From: Lentzea tibetensis
GTDB lineage: Bacteria > Actinomycetota > Actinomycetes > Mycobacteriales > Pseudonocardiaceae
Assembly: GCF_007845675.1 (NCBI RefSeq)
Contig: NZ_VOBR01000030.1
Span: forward strand, 1-64,000
Direction of reading: 5' to 3'
DNA length: 64,000 nucleotides
The notes beneath the pieces were generated by a model, which saw only the letters and a program-made list of their open reading frames with translations, was not told the origin of the DNA and did no database searches. A program made the position numbers and the translations under genes. This document shows, in pieces, positions 14,950 through 32,718 of the stretch. Each line of letters opens with the position of its first letter. Positions within the stretch are counted from its first letter, which is position 1.

Positions 14950-15144
14950 CTATTGCTCGATCGACACCGTGGTGAAGGTGAAGGTGCCCGCGACGGAGTA
15001 GAACGCGCCCGCGGCGAGCGTGAGACCGGCCAGTGCGCGGACTCTCGCGCTGGCACGGGACTTCGGAGCCAGCGCCATCTCCCCGGCGGGGTGCTCGGCC
15101 GACTCGATGTCGAACTCGGCGTCCTGGTGCTCGGCGTTGTTCAT
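14950..15144 (-). CDS. Candidate LanM substrate peptide lacking cysteine
   Basis: 64 aa. The ATG is only 5 nt after the LanM stop, and GAGGGG inside the lanM 3' end is its ribosome site, so translation is probably coupled. Residues 1-25 are acidic and leader-like (MNNAEHQDAEFDIESAEHPA). A basic stretch (PKSRASARVR) follows, then a hydrophobic part, and the end is rich in Thr/Ser (YSVAGTFTFTTVSIEQ). Position and size fit a class II lanthipeptide precursor, but there is no Cys at all, so lanthionine rings cannot form within it. LanM might only dehydrate its Ser/Thr, or the peptide may be a small membrane protein unrelated to LanM, because residues 36-58 could span a membrane. Longer upstream starts would overlap lanM and lack a better ribosome site. 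Confidence 0.65.
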   Translation of the reverse strand: MNNAEHQDAEFDIESAEHPAGEMALAPKSRASARVRALAGLTLAAGAFYSVAGTFTFTTVSIEQ

Positions 15145-15149
15145 CTGAA

Positions 15150-17732
15150 TTACCCCTCGTTGTTCTCGTTGTGGTGTGGAGCGGAAAGCAGGAGCACGGA
15201 CGGCACCCGCTCGGCGAAACCGAGGCGGAGAAGTCCGTATCCGATACCGGCGAGGCCGGTGAGAAGTCCCGGTGACGCTACGGCGCCCGGCGTTCCGCAC
15301 CGCGCGCCGTACTCGTCCAGCGCGCCGAGCAACAGGCCCGCGCGGCGTGTCACCGCAGCCTGCGCGTCCTCGTCACCGCGGTCGGCGAGCGCGGCCAGCG
15401 CCTCGGTCACGCCCAGCTCGCCGTGGCAGAGACTCATGTCCCGCAACGGTTCCCGCTCGACGAGGTGCCGTTCCAGTCCGGGCGCGCCCGCCAGCACCAG
15501 GCCGGCGAGGCCCGAGCACCAGCTGACGTCGTCCACCGGCACGGCAGCGGAGGCGGGACGCCCCAGCGCCCAGTCGACCCCGGCCGCGCCGCGCGCGAAA
15601 CCCGTGCCGGACACCGGCATCGTGGCGAGCTGGTCGGTGTAGCGGCACACCAGCTTCTCGGCCGACGGCAGCCCGGTCTCGGCGTGCACGGAGATCATCG
15701 CGGCGAGCGCGCCCGCGGTGCCGTCGACGACGTCGAACGCGTCGCTGTCGGGCATCAGCGCGAGCGCCGCGTCGACGAGCAACGGGTCGCTGCCCAGCAG
15801 GGTGGTCATCCGGGACAGCGCGTAGGTGATGCCGCCGAGCCCGTGGAACCCGCCGTTGCCGACCGCCGCGGCCATCTCCGGCTCGGCCGCGAACGCCTGC
15901 AGCAGCCGGGGGATCGTGCTCGTGGTGCGGTGCGCGGCGTCGAGATACCTCGCGGCACCCGTCAGCGCGCCGAGCTGTGCGAGGAACAACGCGACGCCGG
16001 TGTAGCCGTTGGACAGGCCCGCGCCCATCGGCAGCACGGCCCAGTGCCGGTCGTCGACCAGCTCGAGCCCCACCCAGTTCATCCGTTCGCCGTCGATGGC
16101 GGCGCGGGCGAGGATCTGGTCCGCGATGCCGCACGCGGCGGCCAGCAGGCGCTGCGCGTCCGGCGCGGTCGGGGTGACCTGGCCGGACAGCGGCTCACCG
16201 CCGCGGTGCTCGACCGGCTTCGGCCTGCTCGCCAGCGCGGCGCTGATCAGCCACTGCTGGTCGTGCCGGTCGACCTCGCCCAGCGCGGCGATCTTGCGCT
16301 CCACCGCGTCGAGCCCGCTGCACGGCAGGAGATCCGGGAGTCGTTCGCCGGACGCGGTCCACAGGTCGGCGGATCCGGGGCGCGAGCACACCAGCGGCAC
16401 GTCGCCGGCCCAGAGGTCGCCGATCTCGTGCGGCACCAGCGCCCGCAGCAGCTCGTCGTCCTGCGACTCGGCCCACAGCAGGTCCAGCGCGAGGTCGCGG
16501 TCGAGCGGGTCGCGCAGCACGTCCGGGTGCGTCGACTCGTCCAGCAGCCGCGCGTAGAGCTGCGTCGGCCTGGCGACGAACCGGATCTCGTCGTCCGCGC
16601 ACTCCCGCACCAGCGCGAGCAGTTCCTCGCGGTGCCCGACGATCGCGTCGTACCCGGCGTGGAACCCGGCCGACAGCGCGGCCTGGTACTCGGCCGGCTC
16701 GGCCTCGTGGTCGCCGATCCGGGGGCGGTTGCTCGCACCGGCGGCGGAGGCGGGCGTGCGGATCAGCCGCATCCGGTCGGTGCCGGGATCGGCCCAGCCG
16801 ACGGCGTCGACCGGCAGCGTCGCGCCGCGGTCGCCGCCGAGGCCGGAGATGTCCGCGATCCCGTTGTCCCCCAGCATCATCTGCGGCAGCAGCGCGGTGC
16901 GGTGCACCGAGCTCGCCAGCGCCAGCGCGGCCGGGTCGTCGCCGACGACGAGCGTCGGGTGGAACAGCGTCTCCACGTCGATCAGCACCGGCTGATCGCC
17001 GCACGCGATCAGGTTCTCGAAGTGCATGTCCGTGCCGTCGACCGCGTAGAGCAACGCCAGCAGCGCGCCCAGCCGGTGGTAGAACGCGCCGACCTCGGTG
17101 ACGTCCGCGCACGGCGCCTGCTCGGCGAACTCGAGCCACCCGTACCCGTCGCGCGGCACCAGGGCCACCGTGCGCAGGGCGATCGACGTCCGCGCGCTCA
17201 GCCAGCCGAGCTGGGCGTTGAAGTGCGCGTGCAGGTCGATCGGGCGCGGCCGGTAGACGACCCGGCGGCCGTCGGCGAACCGCAGCGTCGTGACCGAGCG
17301 GCCGCGCCGGTGCGCGTCACCCTTGCCGGTCTCGACGGCGACGAGTGAGCCGGGATCCACGCCGTCCAGCAGCGTCGCGACGATCTCCGCGCGGTCCTCG
17401 GCGAACCGCCGCAGCAGCTCCTGGTGCGCCTCGACGGCCTGCCGCACCGCTTGGTACAGCAGCCGGGCGAGCACCGGGTAGCGGGTGAGCAGGCCCGAGA
17501 GGTCGAGCGTCCGGGTGAAGTACGTGAACCGCTCGCTCGGCGTCGCGCCCTCGAGCAGACCCTGACGACGGGCGAGGTTGAGCTCCAGCACCAGCGTGCG
17601 CGCGGCCATCCGGACCAGCCGCCTGGCCAGCTGGGTGTCCGCGCCGTGGCTCAGTCCGTCCGCGGGGAGCAGCGGGCGCAACGCGAACGCGAAGGCCGCC
17701 ATCCACGTCTCATCGGCTGCTGCTCTGGTCAC
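15150..17732 (-). CDS. lanM: Class II lanthipeptide synthetase (LanM)
   Basis: 860 aa from a GTG, somewhat shorter than most LanM proteins. The N-terminal two thirds are the kinase-like dehydratase domain: GTDMHFENLIACGD (D near residue 234, H 236, N 239) followed by LIDVETLFHP supply the phosphorylation and elimination residues. The C-terminal third is the LanC-like cyclase with all three zinc ligands in SWCSGLAGL (near 738) and LCHGELG (near 770), plus the NGGFHGLGG-type turns. These enzymes phosphorylate and dehydrate Ser/Thr in a precursor and then add Cys thiols. The active sites look intact, which makes the cysteine-free peptide directly downstream puzzling. It is divergent from the glutamate mutase/NRPS operon. 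The N-terminus may be misplaced, since no clear ribosome site precedes this GTG. Confidence 0.9.
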   Translation of the reverse strand: MTRAAADETWMAAFAFALRPLLPADGLSHGADTQLARRLVRMAARTLVLELNLARRQGLLEGATPSERFTYFTRTLDLSGLLTRYPVLARLLYQAVRQAVEAHQELLRRFAEDRAEIVATLLDGVDPGSLVAVETGKGDAHRRGRSVTTLRFADGRRVVYRPRPIDLHAHFNAQLGWLSARTSIALRTVALVPRDGYGWLEFAEQAPCADVTEVGAFYHRLGALLALLYAVDGTDMHFENLIACGDQPVLIDVETLFHPTLVVGDDPAALALASSVHRTALLPQMMLGDNGIADISGLGGDRGATLPVDAVGWADPGTDRMRLIRTPASAAGASNRPRIGDHEAEPAEYQAALSAGFHAGYDAIVGHREELLALVRECADDEIRFVARPTQLYARLLDESTHPDVLRDPLDRDLALDLLWAESQDDELLRALVPHEIGDLWAGDVPLVCSRPGSADLWTASGERLPDLLPCSGLDAVERKIAALGEVDRHDQQWLISAALASRPKPVEHRGGEPLSGQVTPTAPDAQRLLAAACGIADQILARAAIDGERMNWVGLELVDDRHWAVLPMGAGLSNGYTGVALFLAQLGALTGAARYLDAAHRTTSTIPRLLQAFAAEPEMAAAVGNGGFHGLGGITYALSRMTTLLGSDPLLVDAALALMPDSDAFDVVDGTAGALAAMISVHAETGLPSAEKLVCRYTDQLATMPVSGTGFARGAAGVDWALGRPASAAVPVDDVSWCSGLAGLVLAGAPGLERHLVEREPLRDMSLCHGELGVTEALAALADRGDEDAQAAVTRRAGLLLGALDEYGARCGTPGAVASPGLLTGLAGIGYGLLRLGFAERVPSVLLLSAPHHNENNEG

Positions 17733-17868: not shown

Positions 17869-18291
17869 ATGGAGCTTGCGAGAAAACGCCTGAGCGTGGT
17901 GCTCAGCAGCGTCGCATCCGATTCCCACACGTGGAATCTCGTGTACCTGCAGCTGGTGCTGGAGGAACAGGGGCACGACGTGGTCAACCTCGGTGCGTGC
18001 GTCCCCGACGACCTGCTCGTCGCGGAGTGCCTCCGGTGCGACCCGGACCTGGTCGTGCTCAGCAGCGTCAACGGCCACGGCAGCCAGGACGGCGAACGCG
18101 TCGTCCGCAGGCTGCGCGCCTGCCCCGAGCTCGCCGGCACCCCGGTCGTGATCGGCGGCAAGCTCGGCGTCGACGGCGACGGACGGCACACCGGGAACCT
18201 GCTCCGCGCGGGGTTCGACGCCGTGTTCTCCGACGACGTCGACGCGTTCCGCGCCTTCGTGGACGGACTCCTGGTGCGGGTCGCGGCATGA
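17869..18291 (+). CDS. mutS: Glutamate mutase (methylaspartate mutase) S subunit, B12-binding
   Basis: 140 aa from the ATG at 17869 (CCGGAG upstream). It is a single cobalamin-binding Rossmann domain: SVASDSHTWNLVYLQLVLEE at the N-terminus, VVLSSVNGHGSQDG in the middle and VVIGGKLGVDGD near the end. The usual D-x-H-x-x-G lower-ligand motif reads D18-S-H20-T-W-N23, so aspartate and histidine are present but the glycine is not. With the E subunit it forms adenosylcobalamin-dependent glutamate mutase, which rearranges L-glutamate to 3-methylaspartate. Such mutases supply methylaspartate in several actinomycete pathways (friulimicin, vicenistatin). It starts an operon in which each gene overlaps the next by 4 nt as far as the first NRPS. 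Confidence 0.88.
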   Translation: MELARKRLSVVLSSVASDSHTWNLVYLQLVLEEQGHDVVNLGACVPDDLLVAECLRCDPDLVVLSSVNGHGSQDGERVVRRLRACPELAGTPVVIGGKLGVDGDGRHTGNLLRAGFDAVFSDDVDAFRAFVDGLLVRVAA

Positions 18292-20480
18292 CGGGCTTCG
18301 GGGGGTTCGTGGCCCGCGCACACGCTGCGGGGCAGTTGGTCGTGCAGCCGCGCATGGGGTTCAGCGACCCCGGCCGGATGCGCGGCGGCCTGATCGCCAC
18401 CAAGCTCGCCGACGCGACCACGGTCGGCACGCTCACGCTGGACAGCTACACCAGGGTCGGCGCGAACGACGAGGCCCGGCGGGCGCTCGCCGAAGGAGCG
18501 GCGCTCAACGGCTACCCGATCGTCGCGCACGACGCCGCGACCACCGCGTCGGTCGTGGAAGGACTGCGCGGCCAGGACTTCCCGGTGCAGATCCGGCACG
18601 GGTCCGCGTGTCCCGAACACATCGTGGACGCGCTGGTGCGGACCGGGTTCGACGCCACCGAAGGCGGCCCGGTGTCGTACTGCCTGCCGTACAGCCGGCT
18701 GCCGCTGCGCGAGTCGGTGCGCAACTGGGAACGCGCGTGCCAGCGGCTCGCGGCGGTGCCCGGCTCGCATCTGGAGACGTTCGGCGGCTGCATGATGGGC
18801 CAGCTGTGCCCGCCGAGCCTGCTGGTCGCGATCAGCGTGCTGGAGGGGTTGTTCTTCGCCCAGCACGGGATGCGCGGCATCTCGCTGAGCTACGCCCAGC
18901 AGACCGACCTCGCCCAGGACACCGACGCGATGTTCGCGCTGCGCAGGCTCGGCGAGGAGTTCTTCGCCGGCCTGGACTGGCACATCGTCGTCTACGCCTA
19001 CATGGGCGTGTACCCGAAGACGCCGCACGGCGCGCTGAACCTGCTCGCCCAGGCGGCGCGGCTCGCCGTGCGCACCGGCGGGGCGCGGCTGATCGTCAAG
19101 ACGGTCGCCGAGGCCTACCGGATCCCGACCGTCGCCGAGAACGTCGAGGCACTGGAGCACGCCGCGAGTGCGGCCGCGCTGACCAGCGCACTGCCCGTCG
19201 GGGACGGCGGCGAGGTCTACCGCGAGGCCCGCGCGCTGATCGACGCCGTGCTGAACCTCTCCGACGACCTCGGCCGGGCGTTCGTCCAGGCCTTCGCGCT
19301 CGGCTACCTCGACGTTCCCTACTGCCTGCACCCGGACAACGCGGGCCGCGCCCGCGGTCACGTCGACGCCTCAGGGCGGCTCGCGTGGACGTCCGTCGGT
19401 GCGATGCCCATCCCCGGCGCCACCGGGCGCTCGGCGGGCATCACCTCGTCGTCACTGCTCACCGCTCTGTCCCACGTGGAGCGGACCTTCGATTGGAGTC
19501 CCATGGAAACCCCTCCGTCGCCCCAGCAGCACCTCGCGTCGCCGGTCACGAAGACGGTCATGCGCATCCAGGACACCGCGTTGACCGCGGCCAGGGAGTA
19601 CCTGCGCGACAACGGTTTCGTCGAGTTGCTCCCGGCGATCATCGGCCCGGTCACCGACCCCGGCGTGCGCGGCTCCAAGCAGGTCGACGTCGACTACTAC
19701 GGCCACAAGTACAAGCTGATGACCAGCGCGATCCTCTACAAGCAGGCGTCGTTGCTCGGCTTCGACAAGCTGTTCTACATCGCGCCGAACGTGCGGCTGG
19801 AGCCGCCGGAGACCGCGTCGACCGCGCGGCACCTGGCCGAGTTCCACCAGCTCGACGTGGAGATCTCCGGTGCTTCACGCGAAGACGCCATGCAGGTCGT
19901 CGAGGACCTGGTCCGCGTGATGGTGCAGCGGGTCGTCACGACGATGCCCGCCGAGCTGGAGCAGCTGGGCCGCGACGCGGACGCGTTCAAGGACCTGCTC
20001 GTGTCGGCGTTCGACCGCAGAACGCACGCGTCCGCCGTCGCGGACCTGCTGGAGATCGGCCACCCGCAGAGCGCGGACGCCGAGATCGACTGGCAGGGCG
20101 AGGAGATCCTGTCCCGCAAGTCGTCGCGGCCGTTCTTCGTGACCGACTACCCGAAGGGCTGCCGTGGGTTCTACGACCGGGAGAACCGCGACGTCCCCGG
20201 CATGCTGCGCAACTTCGACCTGATCGCGCCCGAGGGCTACGGCGAGCTGTGCAGCGGCAGCGAGCGCGAGTTCGAGTACGCGAAGATCGTCGCCCGGATG
20301 CGCGAGACGGGGGAGAACCCGGCCAAGTACGGCTGGTACCTGCAGATGGTGCGCGAGGGCATCCCGGACAGCGCCGGGTTCGGCATCGGCATCCAGCGGT
20401 TCATCCGGTACGTCGCCGGGCTCGACTCGGTGTGGCAGGCCAGCGCGTACCCGAAGATCCCCGGTCAGGTGTCGGCGTGA
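18288..20480 (+). CDS. Fusion: glutamate mutase E subunit + AsnRS-like asparagine synthetase domain
   Basis: 730 aa from an ATG overlapping the mutS stop. Residues 1 to about 400 are the catalytic E subunit of glutamate mutase (QPRMGFSDPGRMRGGL, QIRHGSACPEHIVDAL, ETFGGCMMGQLCPPSLLVA). Without a stop the frame runs into residues about 406-730, a class IIb aminoacyl-tRNA-synthetase catalytic core: motif 2 is VRLEPPE with RHLAEF (R503, E505) and motif 3 is GFGIGIQRF (R704). There is no anticodon-binding OB domain, as in the archaeal AsnRS-related asparagine synthetase that amidates aspartate through an aspartyl-adenylate. I infer that it turns glutamate into 3-methylaspartate and then 3-methylasparagine. 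An ATG at 19503 with TTGGAG upstream could also give the second half as a separate protein. tRNA charging is an alternative role. Confidence 0.85.
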   Translation: MTGFGGFVARAHAAGQLVVQPRMGFSDPGRMRGGLIATKLADATTVGTLTLDSYTRVGANDEARRALAEGAALNGYPIVAHDAATTASVVEGLRGQDFPVQIRHGSACPEHIVDALVRTGFDATEGGPVSYCLPYSRLPLRESVRNWERACQRLAAVPGSHLETFGGCMMGQLCPPSLLVAISVLEGLFFAQHGMRGISLSYAQQTDLAQDTDAMFALRRLGEEFFAGLDWHIVVYAYMGVYPKTPHGALNLLAQAARLAVRTGGARLIVKTVAEAYRIPTVAENVEALEHAASAAALTSALPVGDGGEVYREARALIDAVLNLSDDLGRAFVQAFALGYLDVPYCLHPDNAGRARGHVDASGRLAWTSVGAMPIPGATGRSAGITSSSLLTALSHVERTFDWSPMETPPSPQQHLASPVTKTVMRIQDTALTAAREYLRDNGFVELLPAIIGPVTDPGVRGSKQVDVDYYGHKYKLMTSAILYKQASLLGFDKLFYIAPNVRLEPPETASTARHLAEFHQLDVEISGASREDAMQVVEDLVRVMVQRVVTTMPAELEQLGRDADAFKDLLVSAFDRRTHASAVADLLEIGHPQSADAEIDWQGEEILSRKSSRPFFVTDYPKGCRGFYDRENRDVPGMLRNFDLIAPEGYGELCSGSEREFEYAKIVARMRETGENPAKYGWYLQMVREGIPDSAGFGIGIQRFIRYVAGLDSVWQASAYPKIPGQVSA

Positions 20481-21697
20481 AAGCCTCCGGATTCCCCGAG
20501 GACGCGGTGCGCCTGCGCGCCCGCACCGGTGCGGCGGCCGCGTTCCCCTCGACCTCCTCGTACGGCCAGGAGCTGTTCGGCGCGACCGGCGCGGCCGGTG
20601 ACGCGATCGACGAGCTGCGCCTGGTGCCGCCGGTGTTCGTGCCGGAGCGGCTGGAGAAGCTGATCGACCTGGCCCGCGAGCCGCTCTACTCCGACGTCGA
20701 CCTGATGACGGACATCGGCGGGTTCAGCTCGACGCTGCCGGTCTACCTGTCCGCGTTCGGCTCGACCCAGGTGGCCAACTCCTCGCTGGGTGTGGACGCG
20801 TCGCGGCAGGCCGCGTTGCTGGGGATTCCCATGGTGATCGGCGAGAACATCGTGCCGGTCAACGGGTACGCCTCCGATCGCGGACTGCTGGATCGCATCC
20901 AGGCGTACGCATCGCACGTGCCCGACGGGTTCGGCGGCGTCGCGATCCAGCAGAGCACCGAGGACGCGGACGCCGAGGTGTGGAACCTCGTCTACAGCCA
21001 CCCGTCCGCGCAGCCGCTGCTCGACACGGGGCGGCTGGCGTTCGAGCTGAAGGTCGGCCAGGGCGCGAAGCCCGGACTCGGCGGCATGACCGTGCTCGCG
21101 CCGGAAGCGGCGGAACGGGTGGCCGAGCAGTTCTCGCTCGACCCGCTGTGGGGCGACCGCGTGCTGCGCTCCAGCTCGCCCGGCACGTTCACCGACGAGA
21201 TCCTGCGGCAGCAGATCCGGTTGATGCGCAACAACTTCCCGCGCGCCCGGATCTGGGTGAAGCTCCCACCCGCGCGGGACGTCTCCGAAGCCGTGCGGGT
21301 GGCCTGGCTGGCCGGCGCGGACGCGGTGACCGTCGACGGCGCCGAGGGCGGCACCGGGTGGGCGCCGACGAGCTTCCTCGACCACGTCGGGCTGCCGCTC
21401 GCGGAGTGCCTGCGGCGCATCGGTCCCGTCGAGGACTGCCTGCTGGTCACCGGCCGGATGTGGGAGGGCACGCGCGCGGTCAAGTGCCTCGCGCTCGGCG
21501 CCCGCGCCGTCGGTCTCGGCCGGGCCGCGCTGCTCGCGGTGGACACCGACCCCGCGTCGGGTCTCCTGCGGCTGGCAGAGTGCCTGGCACTCGAGATGCG
21601 GTTGCTCATCAGCGCATTGGGCAAGTACTCGCCGGACGCCGTGTCCGCCGACGACGTGTGGCCGTCGACCGCGCAGAAGGTCGAGGTCCTCCGATGA
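20477..21697 (+). CDS. GltB-like FMN-domain protein lacking Fe-S ligands
   Basis: 406 aa from a GTG overlapping the previous stop by 4 nt. It matches the FMN-binding synthase domain of glutamate synthase: LKVGQGAKPGLGGM, VTVDGAEGGTGWAPTSFLDH and ALGARAVGLGRAALLA are the phosphate- and flavin-binding strands of that barrel. The cysteine-rich loop that normally follows and holds the 3Fe-4S cluster is absent; the sequence continues DTDPASGLLRLAECLALEM. There is also no glutaminase domain. In true GOGAT this domain reduces 2-iminoglutarate to glutamate. Here, beside a glutamate mutase and an asparagine-synthetase-like domain, it may supply glutamate, handle an imino/amino intermediate, or perform a different FMN redox step. 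The reaction is not determinable from sequence. Confidence 0.8.
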   Translation: MKASGFPEDAVRLRARTGAAAAFPSTSSYGQELFGATGAAGDAIDELRLVPPVFVPERLEKLIDLAREPLYSDVDLMTDIGGFSSTLPVYLSAFGSTQVANSSLGVDASRQAALLGIPMVIGENIVPVNGYASDRGLLDRIQAYASHVPDGFGGVAIQQSTEDADAEVWNLVYSHPSAQPLLDTGRLAFELKVGQGAKPGLGGMTVLAPEAAERVAEQFSLDPLWGDRVLRSSSPGTFTDEILRQQIRLMRNNFPRARIWVKLPPARDVSEAVRVAWLAGADAVTVDGAEGGTGWAPTSFLDHVGLPLAECLRRIGPVEDCLLVTGRMWEGTRAVKCLALGARAVGLGRAALLAVDTDPASGLLRLAECLALEMRLLISALGKYSPDAVSADDVWPSTAQKVEVLR

Positions 21698-22956
21698 CGG
21701 CGACGCTGGAAGCCCCGGCGCGGAGATCGCTGTGGTTCCACCGCGACTTCCGGCTGCTGTGGATGGGCGAGACGATCAGCAAGGTCGGCGGCGCCGTCAC
21801 GGGTGTCGCGGTCTCGCTGGTCGCGGTGGACGTGCTGAACGCGAGCAGCCTCGAGATGGGCGTGCTGCGCGCGATGTCGTGGCTGCCGTGGCTGCTCATC
21901 GGGCTGCCCGCGGGAGCGTGGATCGACCGCGTGCGGCGCAAGCCGGTGATGATCTGGGTCGACGTCGTGTCGATGGCGCTGTTCCTGACCGTGCCGATCG
22001 CCGCGTGGCTCGGCGCGCTGACCATGACGCAGCTGCTGGTGGTCACGCTGGTCGCCGGTGTGGGACAGGTGTTCTTCAGCGCGGCGTACGGCGCGTACCT
22101 GCCCACGCTGGTGCACAAGGACGATCTGCCCGAGGGCAACGCGAAGCTGGCGGGCACCGAGCAGGTCGCGATGGTCGCCGGTCCCGGACTCGGCGGCGTG
22201 ATCGCCCAGCTGCTCGGCCCGGTGACGGCGTTGCTGAGCCAGGCCGTCGGGTTCCTGGTGTCGGCGCTGTGCCTGCGCCAGATCCGCACCGAGGAACCGG
22301 CACCCGAGCGGTCCGAGCAACCGAACCTGCGCCGCGACATCGCCGACGGCTGGCGCTACATCGTGCGCGACCCGTACCTGCGGGTGCTCGCGGCGTGCAG
22401 CGCGGTCGACAACCTGACGCTCAGCGGCGCGCAGGCGTTGCTCGTGCTGTTCCTGGTCCGCGACGTCGGGCAGGACGCGGGCGCCGTCGGCCTGCTGATC
22501 GGCGCGGACGCGCTGGGCGGCGTGCTGGGCGCGTTGATCGCCACCCGGATCGTGAAGCGGCTCGGCACTGGACGCGCGCTGCTGGCGTCGTCCCTGCTCG
22601 CCACGCCGTTCGGACTGCTGATCCCGTTGACGGACAGCGGGATCGGCCTCGGGTTCTTCGTGGCCGGGCTGCTGATCCCGTCCATCGGCATCGTCGTGAC
22701 CAACGTCGTCGTCAACGGCTTCCGCCAGGCTTACGTGCCGTCGCACCTGCAGGGCCGGGTGTTCACCAGCTCCCGGTTCGTCGCGTTCGGGGTGATCCCG
22801 ATCGGCGCGCTGCTCGGCGGCTGGCTCGGTGACGCGATCGGCATCCGCGACGCGCTGTGGGTGCTGCTGTTCGCCGCCGCACTCGGCAAGTTGCTCCGCC
22901 TGGCCGGCCCTTTCCGCACCACGAAAGACCTTCCGACTGAACCGAGGACGTCATGA
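21694..22956 (+). CDS. MFS transporter, probable product exporter
   Basis: 420 aa from an ATG overlapping the previous stop (ATGA). About 11-12 hydrophobic segments are visible, in two halves joined by a charged loop ([23 protein letters not shown]). [13 protein letters not shown], between the second and third segments, is the major-facilitator signature loop. The layout is that of the drug-efflux group of the MFS (DHA3/enterobactin-exporter-like). Its place between precursor-supply genes and the NRPS genes in one coupled operon argues for export of the peptide product and self-protection. The substrate itself cannot be read from the sequence. Confidence 0.88.
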
Positions 22957-23168
22957 CCAACCCCTTCGAGAACACCGAGACCCCGTACGTCGTCCTCGTG
23001 AACGACGAGAACCAGCACTCGCTGTGGCCCGCCGCGATCACCGTGCCCGCGGGATGGCGCGCGGTGCACGGCCCGGACACCAGGTCGGCGTGCATCGAGC
23101 ACGTCGAGGCCAACTGGACGGACCTGCGGCCCGCGTCGCTGGTCGCGAGCATGAAGGAGTCGGTGTGA
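22953..23168 (+). CDS. MbtH-like NRPS accessory protein
   Basis: 71 aa, the normal family length, from an ATG that overlaps the MFS stop. The hallmark residues are present: NPFENTE at the start, [28 protein letters not shown][16 protein letters not shown]. MbtH proteins bind adenylation domains and keep them soluble and active. Its stop overlaps the first NRPS start by 4 nt, consistent with matched production of the two partners. Confidence 0.96.
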
Positions 23169-26100
23169 TCCCCCTGTCCTTCGCCCAGCGCAGACTCTGG
23201 TTCCTCGGCGAGCTGGGGGAGAGCGCCGCGTACAACGTGCCGTTCTCCGTGCGTCTCAAGGGAAGCCTGAACCGCGAGGCGCTGCGTGCCGCGCTCACCG
23301 ACGTCGTCAACCGGCACGAGGCGCTGCGCACCGTGTTCCCGGTCGTGGACGGCGAGCCCCACCAGGAGATCCGTCCACACGCGACACCCGAGCTGACCTT
23401 CGTCACCTGCACCGAGTCCGACCTGCCCGCCGCGCTCACCAGAGCCAACGGCCACGTCTTCGACCTCGCCGAGGACCTGCTGATCCGGGCGTGGCTGTTC
23501 CAGCTCCGGCCGGACGAGCACGTGCTGCTCGTGGTGGTGCACCACATCGCGAGCGACGGCTGGTCGATGGGCCCGTTCCTGCGCGATCTCGGCATCGGCT
23601 ACGAGTCGCGCTGCGCGGGCCGTGCGCCGGTGTGGGAGCCGCTGCCCGTCGAGTACGCGGACTACACGCTGTGGCAGCAGGACCTGCTCGGCGACGCGGA
23701 CGACCCGGCGAGCCTGCTGGCGCAGCAGCTGAAGTACTGGACCGGCGCGCTCGACGGCATCCCCGCGGAGCTGGTGCTGCCGACCGACCGGCCCCGTCCG
23801 GCCGCACCGAGCGGGCGCGGTGACATCCTCGGGTTCGAGATCGACGGCGACCTGCACCGGGCGTTGACCGATCTGGCGCGCGACACGAACACGACGCTGT
23901 TCATGGTGCTGCAGGCCGCGATCGCGACGCTGCTGTCGAAGCTGGGCGCGGGCGACGACGTGCCGGTCGGCTCGGTCGTCGCCGGCCGCACCGACGACGC
24001 GCTCGACGAGCTGGTCGGGTTCTTCGTCAACACCGTGGTGCTGCGCGGCGACCTGTCCGGCAACCCGAGCTTCCGCACCCTGCTCGACCGAGTCCGTGAG
24101 GCCGGACTCGCCGCGTACGCGCATCAGGAGGTGCCGTTCGAACGGGTCGTCGAGGCCGTGAACCCCGCCCGCTCGCTGGCCAGGCACCCGCTGTTCCAGG
24201 TGATGCTGGTGCTGCAGAACAACAGCAAGGCCGAGCTGGCGTTCCCCGGACTGGACGTCTCGCCGGTCGTGGTGCGCACCGGCTCGTGCAAGTTCGACCT
24301 GATGTTCGGGTTCGAGGAGGCGGACTCCGGCATCGGCGGCGCGATCGAGTACGCCACGGACCTGTTCGACCGCAGCACGATCCAGCGGCTCGGTGAGCGG
24401 CTGGTGCGGGTGCTGACCCAGGTCACCGCGAACCCGGACGCGCCGATCGGCGCGGTGGACGTGCTCGCCGAGACCGAACGGCAGGTGGTGTTCGAACGCA
24501 CCGCCACGGCCGTCGAGATCCCGGACCGCTGCCTGCACGAGCTGTTCGAGGACCAGGTCGTGCGCACGCCCGACGCGACGGCGGTCGTCTTCGAGGGCAC
24601 CGAGATCAGCTACGCCGAGCTGGACGGCGCCGCCAACCAGCTCGCCAGGCACCTGGCACGTCGCGGGGTCGTGCCGGGTGACCTGGTGGGCATCCACCTC
24701 GATCGGGGCCACGAGCTGGTCGCCGCGCTGCTCGCCGTCCTCAAGGCGGGCGCGGGCTACACGATGCTGGATCCCAAGTTCCCGGCCGAGCGGATCGCGA
24801 GCGCCGTCGCGGACTCCGGTGTCTCACTGGTGATCGACCGCGCGTGGCTCGAGTCCGAAGGCGACCTGATCTCCGCCCAGCGGCTGGACGCGCTGGAGCT
24901 GCCGGTGCACCCGGCGACGACCGCGTGCGTCATGTTCACCTCCGGCTCGACCGGCCGCCCGAAGGGGGTGGCGACGTCGCACCGCGGCCTGGCGGGCACC
25001 TACCTCGGGCAGAGCTACTTCGGGCCGGGTGAGGTGTTCCTGCAGTGCTCGCCGGTGTCGTGGGACGCCTTCGCGCTGGAGGTGTTCGGGCCGCTGCTGT
25101 TCGGCGGACTGCTGGTGGTGCAGCCCGGTCAGAACCCGGAACCGCGGGTGATGGCGGCGCTGGTGGCCAAGCACGACGTGACCGCGCTGCAGATGTCCGC
25201 GAGCCTGTTCAACTTCATGCTCGACGAGCACCCGGACGTGTTCAAGATCGTGCGCACGGCCATGACCGGTGGCGAGGCGGCGTCCGTGCCGCACGTCGCG
25301 CGGGCGTTGCGCGACTTCCCCGGCCTGCGGGTGATCAACGGCTACGGACCGGCCGAGAGCATGGGCTTCACCACGGTCTTCGACGTCCACGAGGCGACCG
25401 GCACGTCGATCCCCATCGGCACGCCGATCGCGAACAAGAAGGCGTACGTGCTCGACGGCGCGCTGGGGCTCGTGCCGGACGGCGTGGTCGGCGAGCTGTA
25501 CGTCGGCGGGATCGGACTGGCGCACGGGTACATCAGCCGCCCCGGCCTGACGGCGGAACGGTTCGTCGCGTCGCCTTTCGGTGACGGCGAAAGGCTTTAC
25601 CGCACGGGCGACCTGGTTCGCTGGCTGCCTTCCGGGCAGCTGGACTACGTCGGCCGCATCGACGACCAGGTGAAGGTGCGCGGGTTCCGGGTCGAGCCGG
25701 GCGAGGTCGAGTCCGCGCTGATGAGCCACCCCGGCGTGACGCAGGCCGCGGTGCTCGTGCGCGACGGGCTGCTCGTCGCCTACACCGTGGGCGGTGGCGA
25801 GGACCTGCGTGACCACGTCGGCAGGGTGCTGCCGGAGCACATGGTCCCGTCCGCCTTCGTGTCACTCGACGCGCTTCCCATGACGCCCAACGGGAAGCTC
25901 GACAAGCGGGCGCTGCCCGCGCCGACGTTCGTCGCCCGCGGCCGCGACCCGCGCACGCCGCAGGAGTCCATCCTCTGCGGACTGTTCGGCGAGGTGCTCG
26001 GCGTCGACCGGGTCGGCATCGACGACGGGTTCTTCGAGCTGGGCGGCCACTCGCTGCTCGCGACGCGCCTGGTGAGCCGGGTGCGGTCGGCGTTCGGCGT

Positions 26101-26212
26101 GGAGCTGTCCATCAGGGACGTGTTCGAGGCGCCCACACCCGCCGGACTGGCCGAGCGGGTCGGCCGGGCGGGCAAGGCGCGGCCGGCACTGGTTCGCAGG
26201 GCGAGGGGGTAG
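23165..26212 (+). CDS. NRPS module 1: C-A-T
   Basis: 1015 aa from a GTG overlapping the MbtH stop. The condensation domain covers residues 1-440 ([13 protein letters not shown]; active HHIASDGW). The adenylation domain runs from about 455 to 890 ([37 protein letters not shown]) and the thiolation domain carries [11 protein letters not shown] with the phosphopantetheine serine near 963. My reading of the ten specificity residues is D-A-L-Q-M-G-G-G-F-K; I know no confident match. There is no loading module and no epimerase. An N-terminal C domain in the first protein means that the first residue is acylated by an external donor (for example acyl-CoA) or that a substrate comes from another synthetase. 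No acyl-CoA ligase or other donor enzyme is visible in the window. Confidence 0.93.
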
Positions 26213-26217
26213 TCGAA

Positions 26218-32696
<6,479 letters not shown>

Positions 32697-32718
<22 letters not shown>

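Follow-up and report, generated by a model that had tools for sequence, protein, structure and literature searches.

A recurrent mutE-asnA gene fusion in an actinomycete cassette that probably makes 3-methylasparagine for nonribosomal peptides

We analyzed a 64,000-nucleotide stretch of the Lentzea tibetensis genome (contig NZ_VOBR01000030.1, positions 1 to 64,000; hereafter the window), focusing on a gene in which a glutamate mutase E subunit (MutE) and an asparagine synthetase-like domain (AsnA) share one reading frame. This frame, at 18288-20480 on the plus strand, translates without a stop into 730 amino acids (aa) and holds the following features.

18288..20480, + strand: fused mutE-asnA gene, 730 aa; single open frame with Pfam PF06368 and PF00152, scoring above the NF005052 cut-off
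18306..19415, + strand: MutE (glutamate mutase E) domain, residues 7-376; PF06368, E 1.5e-80, profile positions 10-398 of 441 covered; PDB matches 6h9e/1cb7, glutamate mutase
19495..19505, + strand: GGAG (19495-19498) and in-frame ATG (19503-19505) at 4 nt spacing, the probable separate AsnA start; Shine-Dalgarno-like (SD-like) site in 8/8 fused genes
19533..20471, + strand: AsnA-type (AspRS/AsnRS-like class II) synthetase domain, residues 416-728; NF005052; PDB matches 1x54 and 3p8t

The initial annotation had proposed that one frame links a complete mutase E subunit with a class II synthetase core lacking an anticodon-binding domain, and the profile searches confirmed this architecture. The word "complete" held in part: judged by comparison, the MutE half is full length for the actinomycete biosynthetic type, but its N-terminus lacks ~40 residues relative to the 483-aa GlmE and, at 158 bits, it falls below the 390-bit cut-off of the NCBI equivalog TIGR01503. 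Still, the residues expected of a mutase are present. R22, R56, R103, E125, and Y131 are kept in 88/88 homologues, Y135 in 87/88, and both K271 and E275 in 87/87. In an alignment with clostridial GlmE, R56, R103, E125, Y131, Y135, K271, and E275 correspond to R100, R149, E171, Y177, Y181, K326, and E330; R22 lies outside this alignment and is matched to GlmE R66 by its PRxG motif only. We take these GlmE residues to have substrate and cofactor roles. The MutS and MutE subunits and their catalytic residues thus resemble those of GlmES and of VinH/VinI from the vicenistatin pathway, from which the window differs in the fusion of MutE to a synthetase, the shorter N-terminus relative to GlmE, and the MutS motif DSHTWN.

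The second half matches PF00152 (tRNA-synt_2) at residues 416-723 (E 4.5e-51), and no anticodon-binding domain was found in a Pfam scan of the 730-aa protein, whose C-terminal half is PF00152 only. It reaches 447 bits against the NCBIfam model NF005052, "asparagine synthetase A" (residues 418-728, cut-off 368). An AsnRS identity was considered and rejected, as the two AsnRS equivalogs give 190 and 162 bits against cut-offs of 414 and 343, the anticodon-binding domain is missing, and a lysine occupies position 485; scores against the AspRS equivalogs were likewise far under their cut-offs. With AsnRS cut-offs missed and NF005052 exceeded, the concern that this half is a tRNA synthetase was not borne out. 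The PDB matches were AsnRS 1x54 and the archaeal asparagine synthetase 3p8t. K485 aligns with a lysine in the archaeal enzyme (3p8t/1nnh) and with a glutamate in AsnRS 1x54, and it is lysine in 62/62 loci; presumably, the lysine in place of the AsnRS glutamate binds a carboxylate. R503 and E505 of motif 2 are invariant in 62/62 loci, and R660 and R704 of motif 3 in 61/61. Together with the aspartate-type lysine, this conservation fits an aspartate-like substrate. Archaeal asparagine synthetase A is similarly a lone class II core with the same lysine and motif 2/3 residues, but here the domain belongs to a secondary-metabolism cassette, either joined to MutE or encoded close to it, with a flavin mononucleotide (FMN) partner and a probable 3-methyl substrate. 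Passages of PMC9437257 describe asparagine synthetase A as an AspRS-like, ammonia-dependent enzyme. Overall, comparison supports the identity of both halves, a MutE-type mutase subunit and an AsnA-type synthetase.

Some homologues of class II synthetases acylate carrier proteins (Mocibob 2010, as cited in passages of PMC2922099), and the synthetase half might accordingly charge a carrier protein or tRNA with (methyl)aspartate, as carrier-charging SerRS homologues do. We consider this very improbable, given the missing anticodon-binding domain, asparagine synthetase A as the best model, and the gene calls at 17-33 kb, which include no stand-alone carrier.

To place the fusion among its relatives, we searched 397 genomes of the order with the 730-aa query, scoring two candidates per genome; 105 matched at 1e-20, many of them only through distant synthetases at ~30% identity. 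With this one protein as the query, a pattern search across 84,980 species genomes, which recovers close relatives only, gave 71 loci. The compared set is therefore the window plus 89 loci (18 + 71), or 90 in all, every one selected by similarity to the 730-aa protein. An asnA-type gene is present in 62/90 loci, representing 58 distinct places once those fetched twice (L039, L046, L048, and L050) are removed. It is fused to mutE in 8 of these 62 and is a separate gene in the other 54, among which it lies apart from mutE in six (L039, L040, L105, L107, L109, and L110) and has no mutE within the examined stretch in two (L043 and L049). The remaining 28/90 loci carry mutE without asnA, and no FMN glutamate-synthase-like gene (GLTS) was seen in those stretches. 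A large gene occurs in 13 of the 28 (a polyketide synthase in the one scanned) and a pyridoxal phosphate (PLP)-decarboxylase-type gene lies nearby in 20, as expected for vicenistatin-type starters. From these comparisons, mutS, mutE, asnA, and the FMN "glutamate synthase-like" gene form a conserved actinomycete cassette. Plasmids of Streptomyces sp. NBC_00829 and ITFR-16 carry the same four genes in the same order, mutS-mutE-asnA-"glutamate synthase-related," but their mutE and asnA are separate with a 4-nt overlap rather than fused.

The same fused frame is open in seven other loci (L036, L037, L038, L052, L053, L104, and L119), which answers the search for this two-domain architecture suggested beforehand. 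The nearest fused relative is in Umezawaea tangerina (80% identity over 686 columns). These loci rule out chance, a frameshift, or a unique invention as the origin of the fused frame, and they dispose of the earlier worry about a frameshift error at the junction. The assembly that holds the window is a draft of 105 contigs, and in one relative (L033, genome G014) a single TAA separates mutE and asnA, so an error was worth weighing; with seven further fused loci, including the nearest relative, and some of them drafts or metagenome-assembled genomes too, its probability is negligible. We mapped the fused state on a 56-row tree built from joined MutE and AsnA columns (six rows dropped). It changed six times, with at least five changes forced by starred branches, and the six fused places are the window with Umezawaea, L036 with L037, L052, L038, L104, and L119. 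Gain and loss of the fusion are indistinguishable on this tree. In G014, mutE and asnA share one frame, so that one base suffices to switch between the fused and unfused states. The initial annotation had treated the fusion as the main novelty. The fused frame is real, but this emphasis is weakened by the separate asnA in 54/62 loci, the recurrence of the fusion in other lineages, and the names that RefSeq already gives to unfused copies ("methylaspartate mutase," "asparagine synthetase A," and "glutamate synthase-related protein").

The internal ATG (19503) and ribosome site (GGAG, 19495-19498) claimed at the junction are present, and they recur. In 8/8 fused genes, the last ATG before the AsnA domain, 8-32 codons from it, is preceded by an SD-like site, defined as GGAG, GAGG, or AGGA (a 4-base match) ≤16 nt upstream. 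Other internal ATGs have one at rates of 5-12%: 31/616 in unfused mutE, 34/296 in unfused asnA, and 6/108 in fused genes away from the junction. Unfused asnA genes served as a positive control; in 42/54, one or more of the candidate starts has an SD-like site. At background rates, the chance that 6/6 lineages would carry an SD-like junction ATG is about 2e-6 to 2e-8. Of 42 unfused neighboring pairs, 17 show a 4-nt overlap between the mutE stop and an asnA start with an SD-like site, and in 6 no asnA start with such a site was found. We read the fusion, as the best account of these comparisons, as an extension of translational coupling between mutE and asnA.

The SD-like junction ATG in all eight fused genes suggests that AsnA is probably made in two forms, fused to MutE and free, so that mutE-asnA would be a gene with two predicted protein products; the earlier idea of coexisting forms is thereby backed by comparison. 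The linkers between the fused halves vary in length and sequence, the genes are separate in most relatives, and the fusions are scattered across the tree, all of which would also suit a functionless stop-loss, with only one protein form of importance and the junction ATG as a relic. We find this unlikely because the ATG and its SD-like site are retained in 8/8 fused genes, at six places on the tree, despite the diverged linkers.

The fused gene in the window is embedded in a series of neighbors on the same strand.

17869..18291, + strand: mutS, cobalamin-binding subunit (exact start unsure); PF02310 B12-binding, motif DSHTWN, 4-nt overlap with mutE
20477..21697, + strand: FMN glutamate-synthase-like protein (GLTS), 406 aa; PF01645, E 3.1e-21, 4-nt overlap with the fused gene
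21694..22956, + strand: major facilitator superfamily exporter; PF05977/PF07690
22953..23168, + strand: MbtH-like protein; PF03621, E 7.4e-27
23165..26212, + strand: nonribosomal peptide synthetase (NRPS) 1, condensation-adenylation-thiolation (C-A-T), A-domain code DALQMGGGF, proposed 3-methylasparagine loader; from Pfam domains and A-domain subfamily
26218..32718, + strand: NRPS 2, C-A-T-C-A-T-thioesterase (TE), codes DALWMGGVF and DLTKVGEVG; from Pfam domains and motif order

Every neighboring gene pair from mutS through NRPS1 overlaps by 4 nt, giving the appearance of one tight operon. A scan for promoters and terminators gave no useful lead. The mutS product scores below the NCBI cut-offs (46 vs 136 and 51 vs 110 bits). 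Its DSHTWN replaces DxHxxG, which we take to be the expected MutS motif, and the form D[AS]H[TS]WN occurs in 76/80 homologues. These genes lie in an island of ~22 kb (11,967-34,274) that is bounded by a gamma-glutamyltranspeptidase gene on one side and by the fmt locus on the other. The priA-fmt distance is 25.9 kb here vs 3.8-9.3 kb in 12/12 same-genus genomes, and the island had no match at 1e-10 in 5/5 aligned same-genus relatives.

The third partner of mutE and asnA, the GLTS gene paired with asnA, had been overlooked in the gene set first described. By its PDB matches, the likeness of GLTS is confined to the FMN domain of glutamate synthase. It shares the QGAKPG and GGTGxxP stretches with GltB, but it is stand-alone and without the glutaminase part; because Pfam finds the FMN part only, with no glutaminase domain, the protein does not qualify as a glutamate synthase. 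An Fe-S cysteine set was not found either, C311 being the sole invariant cysteine column in 28 homologues, and GLTS homologues have 1-7 cysteines each (n=59). The AlphaFold model is generally confident (mean predicted local distance difference test 82.2, predicted template modeling score 0.84) but is weaker in two stretches, 196-204 and 230-237.

GLTS was found in 21/397 genomes of the order (four candidates scored per genome), and an asnA-type gene is present in all 21. Across the 62 cassette loci, a GLTS gene was called in 59; the L049 copy lies ~7 kb off on the opposite strand, and L065 and L115 hold partial or broken copies. One single-contig genome (G295) carries asnA and GLTS without mutE (all 17 candidates scored), which ties GLTS to amidation rather than to the mutase. 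Supply of ammonia from glutamate is our preferred guess for its role on these comparative grounds, and a tentative one. This pairing with asnA, even where the mutase is lacking, is the most interesting open point. As a side observation, L043 (3117-5760) and L104 are asnA/GLTS loci with PLP decarboxylase-like and pre-ATP-grasp genes, and the genome of L043 lacks mutE.

The link between the cassette and NRPS can be followed through adenylation domains (A-domains), of which the window has three, with the codes DALQMGGGF, DALWMGGVF, and DLTKVGEVG. On our assumed code positions and substrate guesses, DALWMGGVF is Val-like and DLTKVGEVG is Asn-like. We searched the NRPS1 A-domain core against the 397 genomes at 1e-40, scoring ≤11 candidates per genome. 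The DALQ type was matched in 8/397 genomes, every one belonging to the set of 21 cassette genomes (hypergeometric 1.4e-11, kinship uncorrected). The code glutamine is present in 13/14 matches, the window's own included. Both DALQ-type A-domains of G295 have alanine before Y(G/S)P where the other twelve matches have glycine; alanine is also found in a further G295 A-domain located next to asnA, so it may be lineage-specific. Within the compared set, 13/33 cassette loci with an NRPS-type gene show the DALQ type, as against 0/19 loci that lack the cassette but have a gene of the same cluster, although this is a weak control because most of those genes are stand-alone ligases. The co-occurrence makes a Val-like pocket with glutamine the likeliest loader of the cassette product, and the first NRPS module most likely loads 3-methylasparagine. 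NRPS1 opens with a condensation domain, and no upstream module or starter ligase is among the genes called in the island.

Our explanation, which we regard as probable from the comparisons above, is that the locus is an NRPS building-block cassette making 3-methylasparagine, with a MutE-AsnA fusion and free AsnA as predicted products. From the domains, catalytic residues, cassette, recurrent fusion, internal ATG with SD-like site, and co-occurring A-domain, we infer the reactions, product, loading module, dual translation, and flavoprotein role as follows. MutS and MutE, with adenosylcobalamin, would convert L-glutamate to 3-methylaspartate. The AsnA domain would then activate the side-chain carboxylate with ATP and amidate it with ammonia, and the resulting 3-methylasparagine would be loaded by the first NRPS module. 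This order, from glutamate through 3-methylaspartate to 3-methylasparagine, is the one the initial annotation had suggested, and comparative evidence makes it likely; the direct hand-over between active sites that was also suggested is conjectural. The two genes would have been joined most simply through loss of the mutE stop, and the mRNA would yield the MutE-AsnA fusion while a retained start near the usual asnA start yields free AsnA too. The FMN partner would serve amidation, perhaps by releasing ammonia from glutamate.

Passages of the literature are consistent with such a product and route. VinI-dependent supply of 3-methylaspartate has been reviewed, and disruption of vinI abolishes vicenistatin (passages of PMC11284099). 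Omnipeptin, a depsipeptide from a soil metagenome, contains beta-methyl-asparagine, according to its authors in 2019 the first in a bacterial NRPS product to their knowledge (passages of PMC6710260); what it shares with our system is the proposed product residue. Methylasparagine (MeAsn) has also been assigned in Streptomyces lipopeptides, in passages that do not state the methyl position (PMC10172682).

Several observations weigh against this explanation. G295 has asnA, GLTS, and DALQ-type A-domains without mutE, showing that the asnA/GLTS pair needs no methylated substrate, and plain asparagine would hardly need a dedicated cassette. In 20/33 cassette loci with an NRPS gene, the examined stretch shows no DALQ type, with many of the NRPS genes cut by locus ends. 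DALQMGGGF differs from the Asn code, and the third module has that code, making the third, Asn-like A-domain a possible loader instead. A leftover start from a young fusion would give the same SD-like pattern as dual translation. Finally, different neighbors in Amycolatopsis indicate that use of the cassette differs between clusters.

Some of these points favor a product other than the plain amide, such as a flavoprotein-oxidized amide or an adenylate joined to a nitrogen nucleophile other than ammonia, loaded by the DALQ-type A-domain. GLTS accompanies asnA in 21/21 genomes, the pair and the DALQ A-domain persist in the mutE-less genome, the code departs from that for asparagine, and lysine N-oxygenase-, MetRS-, and cupin-type neighbors occur in Amycolatopsis. 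However, NF005052 is exceeded by a wide margin, no further gene family was seen to be common to all cassettes, and GLTS may just supply ammonia. We consider such a product possible, if rather improbable. A related proposal is that AsnA and GLTS constitute a new two-component nitrogen-transfer system, with mutE-asnA as a dual-start gene and the DALQ code as a new NRPS specificity. The flavoprotein would run the glutamate synthase half-reaction backwards, feeding nitrogen to the acyl-adenylate, or would further transform the product. We hold this combination to be doubtful.

Among the literature matches listed, neither the cassette nor a mutE-asnA fusion was described, and in the passages of the "asparaginyl-tRNA synthetase" matches that were checked, this enzyme appears as an inhibitor target only. 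The fusion is thus a recurrent variant of a conserved, automatically annotated cassette, undescribed as far as the literature was searched. If our explanation of 3-methylasparagine supply is true, the cassette is a genetic route to this residue, and asnA with its FMN partner and the adenylation code are markers for finding further clusters. Moreover, the fusions, which occur in several parts of the tree and each keep an internal start, would make a good system for studying the path from coupled genes to a fused protein. Of the features described here, this internal start and the FMN partner most merit experiments.

Beyond the window, the Amycolatopsis loci (e.g., L076, 539-21784) place the cassette among lysine N-oxygenase-like, MetRS-like, and cupin genes, which we take to act in N-N bond formation; ATP-grasp ligases and a DAO-type oxidoreductase are also present. 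The product there is possibly a hydrazine-type peptide. A strict association of the N-oxygenase-like, MetRS-like, and cupin types with one another is described in passages of PMC2922099. Within the window, the island that holds the cassette also encodes, on the minus strand, a LanM (15150-17702; TIGR03897, 672 bits, cut-off 304) with a possible precursor of 64 aa that is free of cysteine (14950-15144). In L053, L056, and L058, the cassette is likewise flanked by LanM, a small cysteine-free gene, and an AAA-LuxR-type regulator, so these genes may belong to the NRPS cluster.

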